Made by a program: the position numbers and the translations under genes | In this document: piece by piece, positions 8,223 to 40,652 of the stretch | How the letters are laid out: every line of letters begins with the position of its first letter | Numbering within the stretch: position 1 is the first letter of the stretch | Notes under the pieces: generated by a model | Databases searched by the model: none | The model's input: only the letters and a program-made list of their open reading frames with translations | What the model was told of the DNA's origin: nothing | Virus record (IMG/VR): IMGVR_UViG_3300009011_000008 | Location: 1-46,362 of that record | DNA length: 46,362 bases | Origin: a virus | Direction: 5' to 3' (one strand)

Positions 8223-8264
8223 CTTTTCAAATCCGTTTTGTTTTGATAATATTGTTTTGCTGAG

Positions 8265-8346
8265 TATCCTGTGGCGAAATTGGTAGACGCAGCGCCTAAT
8301 TAGGTGCCGCTATTGCAGCGTTTTGGTTCGAATCCAGACGGGAGAA
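8265..8346 (+). tRNA. Class II tRNA(Leu)-like gene with a shortened anticodon loop; possible pseudo-tRNA
   Basis: TGGCGAAATTGGTAGACGC (8272-8290) is a typical leucine-tRNA D arm. CGCT-ATTGC-AGCG is a long variable arm (class II). TTTGG-TTCGAAT-CCAGA is the T arm, and TATCCTG pairs with CGGGAGA (one A-G mismatch) as acceptor. The anticodon stem GCGCC/GGTGC leaves only six bases, TAATTA, so no normal seven-base loop or Leu anticodon can be placed. CCA is not encoded. It may be decayed, or one base may be missing from the assembly. Confidence 0.6.
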
Positions 8347-8571
8347 AGTGTAAACAAATGACTATTAGGAAAGACTAATTGACCGCCTGAAAGTAGGCAA
8401 TTTAGAGAAGTAAATATCGCATCCTAACTGTTTGCATAAGTTGCTTGAAGATGTTCCCGTGGCGCGAACATTTAGACTGTGTATGTATCTATTTGCAATG
8501 TCGATACAGGATGTTTATTTCATCTAAATTTAGTTACTTCCCTTCGACTGCCTCCAAGCAGTCTTTTTTTT
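8347..8571 (+). ncRNA. Candidate structured noncoding RNA ending in an intrinsic terminator
   Basis: No reading frame of useful length exists here, yet the sequence folds in a nested way. Local hairpins: ATTAG/CTAAT (8364/8375), GCCT/AGGC (8385/8395) and ATGTTC/GAACAT (8451/8466). Long-range pairs: GAAGTAA/TTACTTC (8407/8534), AAATA/TATTT (8412/8516) and CATCCT/AGGATG (8420/8508). The first two long-range pairings compete for the same bases. The 3' end is a strong terminator. It could be processed with the tRNA-like gene upstream. No known RNA family is recognised. Confidence 0.45.
8546..8571 (+). terminator. Strong intrinsic terminator
   Basis: GACTGC, loop CTCCAA, GCAGTC, then eight T. It ends transcription through rusA, the tRNA-like gene and the structured RNA. 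Confidence 0.9.
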
Positions 8572-8581
8572 GCTTTAAATA

Positions 8582-34740: not shown

Positions 34741-35366
34741 TGCAGAATATTAAAAATACAATTATGACTCAATATGCCAATAGCCCTACGATATTGGCAT
34801 TGATTAAGGGTATTAATGATGCAATCGATCCTCAGTATTTTATTGAGGATTTCTATAAGTATGTTTATAGCCTATCAACCGCAAAAGGTTTTGGATTGGA
34901 TATTTGGGCTGAAAAGGTTGGCGTATCTCGTAACGTTCCAATGGTTGATCCAAATTCTAAATATTTTGGCTTTGATCCAGCATTCCAACCATTTAACACA
35001 TTTCCATTTTCTGATGGTGGTGCTTTTTCATCTTATCAGCTTCCAGATGAAGACTTTAGAAAGCTAATTATCATTAAGGCAGCTAAAAATATTCTATATG
35101 CAACTGCTTTAAATATTAATCAGTTCTTGCTTATGGTTTTTGGTGGGCGTAGAGCTTATTACAATATTATAGGGCATATGTCTGCCGAATATGTTTTTGA
35201 GTTTTCATTAACAGATTTTGATAAGCTAGTGGTATATGGCTTAGATATGCTACCAAAACCCTGTGGAGTTGGTATCTCATACAAAGAGATTGATGTGGAT
35301 AGAACCCTTGGTTTTAACAATTCAGAACTAAGCAACTTTAACAATGGAGTTTTCTATAGTGGCTAA
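34740..35366 (+). CDS. Tail protein I-like, DUF2612 (208 aa)
   Basis: SPTILALIKGINDAIDP, FYKYVYSLSTAKGFGLDIWAEKVG and FGFDPAFQPFNTFPFSDGGAF are DUF2612 traits. It connects wedge tips to fibres, matching its place between J and the fibre genes. Its end overlaps the fibre gene. Confidence 0.87.
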   Translation: MQNIKNTIMTQYANSPTILALIKGINDAIDPQYFIEDFYKYVYSLSTAKGFGLDIWAEKVGVSRNVPMVDPNSKYFGFDPAFQPFNTFPFSDGGAFSSYQLPDEDFRKLIIIKAAKNILYATALNINQFLLMVFGGRRAYYNIIGHMSAEYVFEFSLTDFDKLVVYGLDMLPKPCGVGISYKEIDVDRTLGFNNSELSNFNNGVFYSG

Positions 35367-36162
35367 CCCTATTTTTATTCCCGCTCCATTCGCGGTGAAT
35401 GGCATTAAAAATGCTATTGAAAAAGCAAGGCAGACTGGACAGGATCCGCAAGATGCAACTTGGCTTACAGGTTGGGAGGCTATTACTTTCACGCCAATTG
35501 AGGCGGGAGGAAAGCCGCCAAAAGGGCAGGATTTTAACGGTATTTTTTACGCATTAAGTGACAATGCTGTATATGGTCAAAATGGTAATCGCTATAAGTT
35601 CTCTCAAAATGTAATTACAAACTATGGTGGTTATAATAAGGATGCTATTGTTCAGTCTGATGATGGAACAAGAGAATTTATTAGTCTTATAGATTTAAAC
35701 ACAAGCAATCCTAATAACGGAACTGGCGCCAACTGGGCAATTTATGCAGGATCTGGTAGTGTTCCAGCTGCAACTAGCACAACTGCTGGTGTAACAAAAG
35801 TTATTAATTCTTTGAATAGTAACGACATTGGTTCCGCCCTTAGTGCAGCACAGGGTAGAGTTATTGGCGATATATTGTCAAGATTCAATTTAAATATTGA
35901 AGGGTTAAAAATACCACTTGGCGATGTTACGTTTATTTTTAAATGGGGCTCTAATCCCGTCAATGCCGACTCGAATGCTAATATATTATTTCCAGTTGCA
36001 TTTCCAAACATTTGTTTAAATGCTCAAGCAACATTAAATAGTGTTACTTTTGACTCTTTTGCGGATGCTGGCTGTGGTGTAACTTGGACCAAAAATGGCC
36101 TAATTTTGAGAAATGGCACAGCCAATCAATTAAATATCTCATGGTTTGCAATAGGGTATTGA
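35359..36162 (+). CDS. Tail fibre or receptor-binding protein (267 aa)
   Basis: GTG 35359 (GGAG at 35346-35349) gives ANPIFIPAPFAVNGIKN, which parallels the start of the tailspike (TNPTLVTTPFAENGDKN). ATG 35344 is the alternative. Next comes IEAGGKPPKGQDFNGIFYAL, a domain also found in the tailspike (GGIPPERNDFNGILNLY). The C-terminal 90 residues are a small beta domain ending GTANQLNISWFAIGY, similar in style to receptor-binding tips. The two proteins therefore share an attachment module. Confidence 0.82.
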   Translation: MANPIFIPAPFAVNGIKNAIEKARQTGQDPQDATWLTGWEAITFTPIEAGGKPPKGQDFNGIFYALSDNAVYGQNGNRYKFSQNVITNYGGYNKDAIVQSDDGTREFISLIDLNTSNPNNGTGANWAIYAGSGSVPAATSTTAGVTKVINSLNSNDIGSALSAAQGRVIGDILSRFNLNIEGLKIPLGDVTFIFKWGSNPVNADSNANILFPVAFPNICLNAQATLNSVTFDSFADAGCGVTWTKNGLILRNGTANQLNISWFAIGY

Positions 36163-36163
36163 T

Positions 36164-36946
36164 ATGACAAATCCAACTTTAGTTACAACACCATTTGCTG
36201 AAAATGGTGATAAAAATATAATTCCAAATATCAATACGGATCCTAGCAAACCGCAATTGGCATCTAATGATATTGGATTCCCGCCAATTACCCAACAGAA
36301 GATTTCTGAAGGTGGTATTCCACCTGAAAGAAATGATTTTAATGGTATTCTTAATTTATATGGCCAACACATTGTCCACCTAAACAAAGGCTTATCATAT
36401 GAATTTGATCAATCTTATTCAGATTTAATTGGCGGATATCCAATTGGATCTGAATTAGTATTGTCTGATGGTCTGACAAAAGTTGTTAATATTGTTGCAA
36501 ACAATACAAACAACCCAAATTCTGATTTAACAGGGTGGAAACTAAAGGACTTAAAAAAAGAAGTTGACACGCCGCCTGACTTGCTTTCCATAAATAATCC
36601 AAAGGATGGGCAAATTGCATTTGTTAAATCATTGCAGAAATCTTACATATATAATGCTAGCCTAACTGAACCATCAAATGGGGTAACAGTGGTTGGTAAG
36701 TGGGAGATGGAAAATCAGGATGTTTATTACGCATCTTGGTTTGCACAGTCAAACACCCCAAGTGCAGACCAGTCACTTTCTTTGCAGACTGGATACGATT
36801 ATGCTGTTTCTAAGGGTAGACCGTTTATTATTGATGATAAATTCTATGTAGAAGCTAATCAAACTTTATTTGGCATTCCAAATAACAGTATTATTATTCG
36901 GAATAATTCATGGTTGATATATTCTCCAGCTGGAGAATTAATTTAA
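36164..36946 (+). CDS. Tailspike, N-terminal part (260 aa) before an in-frame TAA
   Basis: Attachment module at residues 1-90 (TNPTLVTTPFAENGDKN, GGIPPERNDFNGILNLYGQH), a linker domain, then the first strands of a beta-helix (IIDDKFYVEANQTLFGIPNN, SIIIRNNSWLIYSPAGELI). TAA at 36944-36946 is followed in the same frame by 13 sense codons and ATG 36986, which opens the C-terminal part. The whole frame 36164-38257 would encode about 697 residues, a normal tailspike length, so this is one gene broken by one codon. Confidence 0.85.
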   Translation: MTNPTLVTTPFAENGDKNIIPNINTDPSKPQLASNDIGFPPITQQKISEGGIPPERNDFNGILNLYGQHIVHLNKGLSYEFDQSYSDLIGGYPIGSELVLSDGLTKVVNIVANNTNNPNSDLTGWKLKDLKKEVDTPPDLLSINNPKDGQIAFVKSLQKSYIYNASLTEPSNGVTVVGKWEMENQDVYYASWFAQSNTPSADQSLSLQTGYDYAVSKGRPFIIDDKFYVEANQTLFGIPNNSIIIRNNSWLIYSPAGELI

Positions 36947-36985
36947 ATCAACCAAAACAAAAACCAAAGCAATATTTTACTTTGT

Positions 36986-38257
36986 ATGCGCATCAGTGAT
37001 TTTAAAATTATTTCTTCAAAAATTACAGGTGATCGTCTTTCAAATACATTTTTACCCCCATCTTCTGATGCTCAAGGCTTCGGTTATGGGATAGCACTGT
37101 ATGAGTGCTCGGATGGTTATATATTTGAACCAAAAGTCTCCCAGTGCCATGGGGATAATATATACATAGGAAAGCCGTGGGGTAGCAATCAAGAGTTATT
37201 GCCTAAAAACATCACTATTGTTCGACCTGTTTGTGACCATGCTAGAAGAAACTGCATATCATTAACAGCATGGGATAATGTTAAAATTATTGACCCAATT
37301 TTGTCTTACGCTGGAGATAGTGATGGCATAACAGGGGCTTTCCCAAAGTCTGGAATTGATGTTGAGCTAGAAAGCGCCGAAGGATTCCCACAGGCCAACG
37401 GCTACAACGGAGTTATATCAAATCCAAAATTTTTAAATTGCGACAATGGATTATTTTTTTACTGTAGTTATGATAATAGAAACTTTGATATGCATATTCA
37501 GGGTGATGTAATTATTAATAATGTAAAAACCATTGGATTGGGTTTGTTTCATGGCTCAAGCAATTGCACTGGATTTGTAAAAATTGATAATGTTAGATAT
37601 TTATCAAGCACATTCCAAGAAGTTGCTTTGGCGTGGCACAAAGACTCAAAACTTAATGTTGAGATTGATAATATTTACCCTTTGACTGGTGACTCAACTT
37701 TCGAGATAGCAAGTATATTAAATGGTGAATTTTCAACTAAAGTTTTAGGTAATGTTGTCATAAACAATATTCACACTGTGGGATTTACTCCATTTACTTG
37801 TGACATTGGGTCAAATTATACGGTTGACGGTTATCGGTTTCATGTATCTGATGCTAGTGTATCAGGTGTTATACCATACACTAATAACGAATTATTACAG
37901 GCTTCTCTAGCAGGTCCTAGAACATATATAAATTCCAAGGATAGTTATGTGCATACTCAATACTCAGCATCGAGTCTACGTATGCCTAATGAAATATGGC
38001 AAGACCCAAGTATTTCGCCAACGGATTTTATTTTTATAAATACCACTGATGATTTAAGAATATTAAAAATTGGCCTACATTTTAACACATCAACAATTGG
38101 GAATGGATGTAATATCAATGGGTTAAATTTACTTATTGGAGGTGTTGCCAAAACCCAAGCCAGAACCACAACATTGGGTGGATGGATAAAATTTCAAAAT
38201 ACAAGCGGAGGAAGAACCAAAATAATCTCTTCTTATGGTGATTGGAGTTTTTCTTGA
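36986..38257 (+). CDS. Tailspike, C-terminal beta-helix part (423 aa), probable capsule depolymerase
   Basis: Same frame as the preceding gene. Beta-helix rungs (ISDFKIISSKITGDRLS, NITIVRPVCDHARRNCISLT, VKIIDPILSYAGDSDGITG, VIINNVKTIGLG) and catalytic-style Asp/Glu residues (GDSDGITGA, SGIDVELESAEG) fit pectate-lyase-fold spikes that cut host capsule. The internal ATG 36986 has no ribosome site nearby, so it is not an obvious separate gene. It would lack the attachment module on its own. Confidence 0.82.
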   Translation: MRISDFKIISSKITGDRLSNTFLPPSSDAQGFGYGIALYECSDGYIFEPKVSQCHGDNIYIGKPWGSNQELLPKNITIVRPVCDHARRNCISLTAWDNVKIIDPILSYAGDSDGITGAFPKSGIDVELESAEGFPQANGYNGVISNPKFLNCDNGLFFYCSYDNRNFDMHIQGDVIINNVKTIGLGLFHGSSNCTGFVKIDNVRYLSSTFQEVALAWHKDSKLNVEIDNIYPLTGDSTFEIASILNGEFSTKVLGNVVINNIHTVGFTPFTCDIGSNYTVDGYRFHVSDASVSGVIPYTNNELLQASLAGPRTYINSKDSYVHTQYSASSLRMPNEIWQDPSISPTDFIFINTTDDLRILKIGLHFNTSTIGNGCNINGLNLLIGGVAKTQARTTTLGGWIKFQNTSGGRTKIISSYGDWSFS

Positions 38258-38655: not shown

Positions 38656-38914
38656 TTGCGCTAGTCTATTAATGATATTTTTATCATTAATGGTTGCTGT
38701 TGTGCATCCTCGTATTAAATTCCCTTTGCATGTTGATGCCATCATGCTAGTGGTTGCTGTTGGATCTGCCGCTGTATTTATTAATACAGTATTGGGCTGG
38801 AATATGCGCGGACATCTTCAAAACGCTGAGGTATTAACGCGCTTTGGTGCTGCATGTTTAATTGTTCGGCTTGTTTATGGTTACTTGAGGGTAAAGTCCA
38901 ATGAAAATGACTAA
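38639..38914 (+). CDS. Holin-like protein 2 (91 aa)
   Basis: Three hydrophobic spans (about 4-22, 33-52 and 66-82) and a short basic end. Starts in a run of ATG codons (38639, 38642, 38645) inside the end of holin-like 1. Overlaps the endolysin start. Probably a second holin, or an antiholin partner. Confidence 0.7.
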   Translation: MMMFLNCASLLMIFLSLMVAVVHPRIKFPLHVDAIMLVVAVGSAAVFINTVLGWNMRGHLQNAEVLTRFGAACLIVRLVYGYLRVKSNEND

Positions 38915-39467
38915 AGGTGGCTTTGATATTATTCGCAATAATTTAGGGCGATTAAATGAAAGCCAAGTAAATGAGATTAACTTTATTGTTGGTGAGATGG
39001 ATAAAGATAAGTCCATCTCATATCCCAATGGTGCTTATATTCTTGCTACAACATGGTGGGAGACTGCTAAAACCATGCTTCCTATTGAAGAATATGGGAA
39101 AGGAAAAGGTAGAAAATATGGTCAACATTACGACATTGACGGTAGTGTCTACAAAGGATTAGATCATCTTTATTATGGTCGTGGCTACGTTCAGCTTACG
39201 TGGCTATCAAATTACTTACTAGCCAAAAATAAACTTGGCATTGATTTTGTAAATCATCCCGAATATGCCTTACAAAAAGAATATGCAATTAAAATTCTTT
39301 TGACTGGCATGAAAGAAGGTTGGTTCACTGGTCGCAAGCTTTCTGATTACATTTATCAATCCAAAAAAGATTATGTAGGCGCACGGAGAATTATTAATGG
39401 TACAGACAAAGCGCAGAAGATTGCTGAAATCGCTATTATTTTTGAGCGCGCTTTGCGTAGTTTGTAG
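38901..39467 (+). CDS. Endolysin, GH19-type lysozyme (188 aa)
   Basis: Cell-wall hydrolase. SYPNGAYILATTWWETAKTMLPIEE supplies the catalytic Glu context of phage GH19-like lysins (WETAxTMxPIxE), then YYGRGYVQLTWLSNYLLAKNKLG, the usual second motif. No signal peptide, so release depends on the holins encoded upstream. Full length for the family. Confidence 0.9.
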   Translation: MKMTKGGFDIIRNNLGRLNESQVNEINFIVGEMDKDKSISYPNGAYILATTWWETAKTMLPIEEYGKGKGRKYGQHYDIDGSVYKGLDHLYYGRGYVQLTWLSNYLLAKNKLGIDFVNHPEYALQKEYAIKILLTGMKEGWFTGRKLSDYIYQSKKDYVGARRIINGTDKAQKIAEIAIIFERALRSL

Positions 39468-39732: not shown

Positions 39733-39809
39733 GATTTTTCCTAGATGATGCATATTAAAATAATAATTGCCTACTTTAAAAGGTATTTAACATGCATGAG
39801 GAAGAAATA

Positions 39810-40652
39810 ATGAATATTCAACCTACATACCCTGCAATGGTCGCAACTGGTGGCTATGGTGATGGTCTTGGAAATGGTGGATTAGGATTGCTTGCATTAG
39901 CAATGCTTGGCGGTCGCGGCTTTGGTAACGACTGGAACCGTGGTGGCAACTGGGGCGGCGAGGGGTGCGTAACAAATTCAACCTTTACTGCTGGTATTAC
40001 TGGCGTGACTGATGCTATTCAAAACACAACTGTTGTTGATGGTATTGGTGATATCAAGCAAGCTATCTTTCAAGCGGAAGGTAATTTGCAATTAGCTGGT
40101 TGTGAAAACACAAGTGCTATCCGATCACACTTAGGTCAAGTAGAAAACACTATTGTGGCAGGGCAACTAAACCTTGCTAATGGCATTAATGGTGTGAATG
40201 TAAATGTTCTACAAAGCGCCGCTGCAACTCGTGAAGCCGTAGCGCAAAGTGGAACTCAAAATCTTCTTGCAACTAAAGACGCTCAGGCAGTTCTTTCAGC
40301 TCAGGCTGCAAGCAATACAAATTTAATTCTTGCTGCGCTTAAGGATCAAGAAATTACCAACCTCAGCCGACAGTTGACTATTGCAGAGCTTCGCAACACT
40401 GAAGATCGCGCAGAGGCTCGCGCTCGAAGCACTGAGGTTAATGTAACCCAAACTGTTACTCAGAACCAACTTCAACTACAAGCACAGCAACAACAACAGC
40501 AACAAGCACAATTGCTCGCCAATCTTGCAACTTGTGTTGGAAACTTGGCTAATGATGTTCAAGTAGTTCGCGCTACACAACAAAACGTAAACTTCGGTGT
40601 GCAAGCTGGCGTTGGTCAAACATCAAATGCTACTAACAATAGTGTTCGATAA
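39810..40652 (+). CDS. Glycine-rich/glutamine-rich putative virion protein (280 aa)
   Basis: Start ATG 39810 (GAGGA eight bases upstream) is favoured over ATG 39792. Residues 10-50 are Gly/Trp/Asn-rich (GGYGDGLGNGGLGLLALAML, NRGGNWGGEG). Residues about 60-230 are an Ala/Gln/Asn helical repeat region, with a Q-rich tract near 225 and a Val/Asn/Gly-rich end. Related uncharacterised proteins occur in other phages. A structural or membrane-linked role is a guess. Confidence 0.7.
   Translation: MNIQPTYPAMVATGGYGDGLGNGGLGLLALAMLGGRGFGNDWNRGGNWGGEGCVTNSTFTAGITGVTDAIQNTTVVDGIGDIKQAIFQAEGNLQLAGCENTSAIRSHLGQVENTIVAGQLNLANGINGVNVNVLQSAAATREAVAQSGTQNLLATKDAQAVLSAQAASNTNLILAALKDQEITNLSRQLTIAELRNTEDRAEARARSTEVNVTQTVTQNQLQLQAQQQQQQQAQLLANLATCVGNLANDVQVVRATQQNVNFGVQAGVGQTSNATNNSVR

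Follow-up and report, generated by a model that had tools for sequence, protein, structure and literature searches.

The tailspike gene at positions 36164-38257 of the window, the whole 46362-base stretch of viral DNA analysed here, is interrupted by a single in-frame TAA. The explanation that we regard as probable, if not strongly so, is that an Obolenskvirus-type Acinetobacter phage has recently acquired a nonsense substitution in its one gene for a tailspike capsule depolymerase, which makes the sequenced allele null. We infer that the phage DNA truly carries the TAA and that the phenotype is null. The weights given in the text to this and to the competing readings are judgements and were not computed.

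The reading frame opens at ATG 36164 on the plus strand and forms an ORF of 260 amino acids (36164-36946), the upstream part of the tailspike and the predicted source of a truncated product. Beyond it the frame continues for 436 sense codons (36947-38257, plus strand), which cover the bulk of the beta-helix along with the C-terminal region, contain no further stop or frameshift and end with a stop at 38255-38257. The ORF analysis bore out the claim of the earlier note that the TAA at 36944-36946 (plus strand) is the only break between ATG 36164 and 38257. Given the base composition, the probability of a stop-free run over the 436 downstream codons is about 2.5e-15, and the longest open run in the remaining five frames is 81 codons; the continuation is, therefore, not a product of chance. 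GC is lowest at the third codon position in both halves of the gene, which thus show the same coding periodicity. The first in-frame ATG 3' of the stop (36986-36988, plus strand) is separated from it by 13 sense codons, as previously counted, and has no Shine-Dalgarno sequence. The anti-SD energy 5' of this ATG is +1.7 kcal/mol, the weakest among 46 scored starts, in agreement with the proposal that the second part lacks a ribosome site.

At 36.6% GC, free of N and with a terminal repeat of 123 bases, the record has the appearance of a complete and clean assembly. Its late region matches phages of Acinetobacter from the genus Obolenskvirus, and the window is a complete-looking Obolenskvirus-type Acinetobacter phage genome with kin among the viruses of Acinetobacter baumannii. 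The earlier description of a stock carrying a mutation is unsupported, the DNA being a virus record. The interrupted gene sits between a tail-fibre gene and the lysis genes, which, judged from gene order, is the tailspike position of Obolenskviruses. The separate tail-fibre gene is intact and lies directly upstream (35344-36162, plus strand; Pfam Gp53-like_C, E 2.2e-12; PHROG 1396, tail fiber). Downstream, on the same strand, are a gene that by synteny stands in place of the annotated holin of phage WUPSU (38320-38655; PHROG 9175, unknown function) and the endolysin gene (38901-39467; PHROG 181 endolysin, E 2.9e-35). The region 3' of the endolysin (39792-40652) encodes a 286-aa protein rich in glycine and glutamine, for which no PHROG match was found at E 1e-4. 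Obolenskviruses are reported to have one tailspike depolymerase each, which sets capsule specificity, beside a tail fibre (PMC10888812), and no further copy of the tailspike/depolymerase gene was found in the window genome.

Homology, synteny and fold support the view, already put forward from the sequence, that the gene encodes a tailspike depolymerase, the main receptor-binding enzyme. PHROG 34663 (698 positions, unknown function) matches residues 1-260 with an E-value of 3.9e-96, and the downstream half weakly and in part. The N-terminal region, comprising residues 1 to about 131 (36164-36556, plus strand), is common to other Obolenskvirus tailspikes: residues 1-131 find matches in 12 IMG/VR loci and numerous Obolenskvirus records, and a virion-anchor role is assigned to these residues following PMC10888812. 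The tail fibre (35344-36162) and the tailspike (36164-36550) have a related N-terminal segment with about 37% identity, which would fit an ancient duplication of the virion anchor.

For the downstream part, neither Pfam nor a sequence search of solved structures gave any match. An AlphaFold2 model was built on the read-through frame, from an input alignment that omitted two rows from the annotated phage collection. The mean pLDDT of the model is 67.3; most values for residues 200-290 exceed 80, and confidence is low in residues 1-80 and most of 516-608. The model strands E238-245, E249-253, E258-261, E268-275 and E278-283 span residue 261, which ends the strand 258-261, and the strands of the beta-helix are unbroken across it. 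The predicted beta-helix thus continues past the TAA, as had been suggested, and in the model the stop falls within this element and not at a domain boundary. A Foldseek comparison of the model with solved tailspike depolymerases returned Belisarius gp86 (24qi; E 1.6e-10) and AS12 gp42 (6eu4; E 4.4e-8) first. These proteins and Fri1 gp49 (6c72) have the same right-handed beta-helix fold (E 1.6e-10 to 8.7e-5) at 12-14% sequence identity and low global TM-scores, a likeness that speaks to fold class alone and not to substrate. The model places the downstream part in the right-handed beta-helix tailspike fold class.

The closest protein is a tail fibre, UJQ43526.1, of Acinetobacter phage vB_AbM_WUPSU (Obolenskvirus), the product of one intact 693-aa gene at the same locus, ahead of the holin and endolysin genes. 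The two sequences are collinear over the full length, with an amino-acid identity of 63.5% upstream of the TAA and 72.2% downstream, whereas the WUPSU gene is unbroken and has a sense codon at the site of the stop. The tailspike of Acinetobacter phage YMC-13-01-C62 (AID17959, 698 aa) is likewise uninterrupted, has the same 698-codon layout with 56% identity over residues 1-260, and ranks first when the model is compared with the viral fold library (E 1.1e-35). Its beta-helix part is about 25% identical to that of the window, so its capsule specificity is probably different; the C62 tailspike has been assigned to K48 (PMC11126041). The residue at the TAA site is Gln in both WUPSU and C62 and Lys in the phage-4316-like family, and the Gln codon of the two nearest relatives is one substitution away from TAA.

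Homology to the beta-helix and C-terminal region over the whole downstream length, at about 33% identity, extends to the tailspike of the temperate Acinetobacter phage 4316 (32.9%) and to IMG/VR loci L029-L036; the N-terminal anchor of these 4316-type tailspikes differs from that of the window. The depolymerase module (window 36670-38257) is common to lytic Obolenskviruses and temperate 4316-like contigs with quite different anchors. The homology between the window and a further locus, L002, begins near residue 170, the putative boundary of a module swap. A literature search found no K type recognised by a WUPSU-like domain.

Each of the 12 IMG/VR loci that share the N-terminus has an open frame of 656-826 aa, and eight of the 10 IMG/VR loci sharing the C-terminal domain are unbroken, the other two being frameshifted. 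The TAA is private to the window record among all sequences compared. The two frameshifted loci, L037 and L038 (about 4460), encode related tailspikes whose frameshifts coincide in position, around the GYFFP motif; either slippage at that site or a sequencing error common to both may be the cause. They were rejected as precedents because the frameshifts lie elsewhere in the gene, in two loci of one genome, and represent a different event. A search for a second record of the phage or its tailspike gave no close relative in GTDB genomes, in plasmids or in IMG/VR, the last of which was queried with the protein, a two-row alignment and a 20-base pattern next to the TAA. Nor did the literature search yield a report on the window phage or on any naturally occurring nonsense allele of an Obolenskvirus tailspike.

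The pN values with respect to WUPSU are 0.257 for the upstream half and 0.176 for the downstream half. The downstream half is, therefore, the better conserved of the two, and the pattern clearly points to purifying selection on both halves in the past, for most of the history of the gene. Because synonymous sites are saturated, dN/dS against WUPSU was discarded as a test of decay after the TAA; it reports past selection only. The absence of a second stop in the 436 codons bounds the neutral age of the event at about 0.048 substitutions per site (95% limit). The time available for neutral decay is thus limited, and the event is either young or an error.

In the mechanism that we propose, one base substitution, enough to account for all the observations, would have produced TAA at 36944-36946 in an otherwise intact frame. 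Translation of this template would end after 260 residues, and the resulting stub would keep the virion anchor and halt only a few turns into the beta-helix. Devoid of the enzyme and the C-terminal part, it would make the allele null. The intact Obolenskvirus tailspike depolymerases are encoded in a single uninterrupted frame, which the TAA breaks here, and the allele is thus a broken member of the group. WUPSU and C62 have intact single genes that are collinear over the TAA site, and a frameshift in place of the nonsense change was rejected because the WUPSU alignment keeps its register around the TAA. When the ORFs of relatives were compared with the window, the conserved window genes showed no additional in-frame stop or frameshift; the leftover flagged stops lie, in our reading of the list, in antisense shadow frames or just beyond a gene's own start or end. 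Counting against a true null allele, a phage that loses its sole depolymerase should pay a price on capsulated hosts. Its particles, with no functional depolymerase, would need hosts in which the capsule is absent or no barrier, or would rely on co-occurring intact phages from the sample. Among other Acinetobacter phages, some use a second receptor to infect bare cells and are blocked by a capsule that does not match (Twarogvirinae, PMC12507263). By analogy with these phages, which belong to another group than Obolenskvirus, a phage without a depolymerase would not be absurd.

The earlier note had offered three options, of which a nonsense mutation and a wrong base fit all the evidence, while readthrough found no support. 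On sequence alone, a true mutation and a consensus error appear equally compatible, and reads would decide between them. The error might stem from sequencing or amplification, from DNA damage or from a minor variant picked by the assembler, with the phage itself intact; we consider this possible but doubtful. A lone substitution within an otherwise clean gene suits such an origin, as do the null state that the TAA would impose on the sole depolymerase and the failure to find a second record with this base; records at the same locus do hold errors. In the record of phage Ab65 (L026, 10477-12791), a frameshift with respect to AbP2 divides the tailspike between two annotated genes, and the sheath and helicase are likewise annotated in pieces, which suggests that the Ab65 record is error-rich. 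The window differs from Ab65 in that its conserved genes are otherwise free of such defects, and both the complete and clean look of the record, with its terminal repeat and lack of N, and the nature of the change, a substitution and not a homopolymer indel, argue against an error.

Readthrough and split proteins are unlikely even when taken jointly. Readthrough of the TAA, which would give the full tailspike alongside a short protein consisting of the anchor alone, is improbable, even though the downstream frame is open and conserved through the last residue. Readthrough genes are expected to keep the stop in relatives and to have a leaky context, downstream structure or suppressor tRNA, and neither expectation agrees with the data: relatives have no stop at the site, the RNA 3' of the TAA folds no better than shuffles (z 0.10), and no suppressor tRNA was found. 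UAA before AUC forms no known leaky motif. The lone ARAGORN match (8265-8346) was ruled out as a suppressor by its 6-base anticodon loop, the lack of a clear UUA anticodon and a score of 25.3, below the Rfam tRNA cut-off of 29; it is part of a different conserved RNA. TAA is also the commonest terminator, ending 20 of the 46 counted genes, which argues against readthrough and, as an in-frame TAA occurs in one conserved gene only, excludes reassignment of TAA or an alternative code. Two separate stable proteins, an anchor and a depolymerase started at ATG 36986 that would assemble or act apart, are highly improbable. The ATG lies close behind the stop, and WUPSU also has a methionine there, but the missing start signal and a break inside the beta-helix, where model confidence is mostly high, disfavour this arrangement, and every intact relative has a single gene. 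Most doubtful of all is a maintained TAA with partial readthrough, whereby each virion would mix anchor-only and full tailspikes and the population would suit both capsulated and bare cells.

The RNA that contains the tRNA-like match is an intergenic structured candidate of about 310 bases (window 8245-8575). Its core (8380-8416) is kept in 50 Obolenskvirus records; a long-range helix, in which a few changes are compensatory, is accompanied by a terminator and by arms that vary, and the six records tested gave no Rfam family. The 5' arm in the window resembles a leucine-type tRNA with the 6-base anticodon loop, and AP22 and C62/P919 have T-arm-like sequences in another arm. The candidate is possibly a phage RNA with tRNA-mimicking arms.

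The interruption is an ordinary nonsense allele, or an error, in an already known kind of gene. With a wrong base at this site, the case would be a warning that automated annotation would predict a pair of short proteins and overlook the depolymerase. Whether the base is right or wrong, the predicted depolymerase domain of the window is a new example of the WUPSU/4316 type. If the base is right, as in the nonsense reading that we favour, the record would hold a natural null allele of the only capsule depolymerase of the phage. Such a phage would grow only where the capsule is absent or where helpers supply the enzyme, which would be mildly interesting for capsule-phage ecology.
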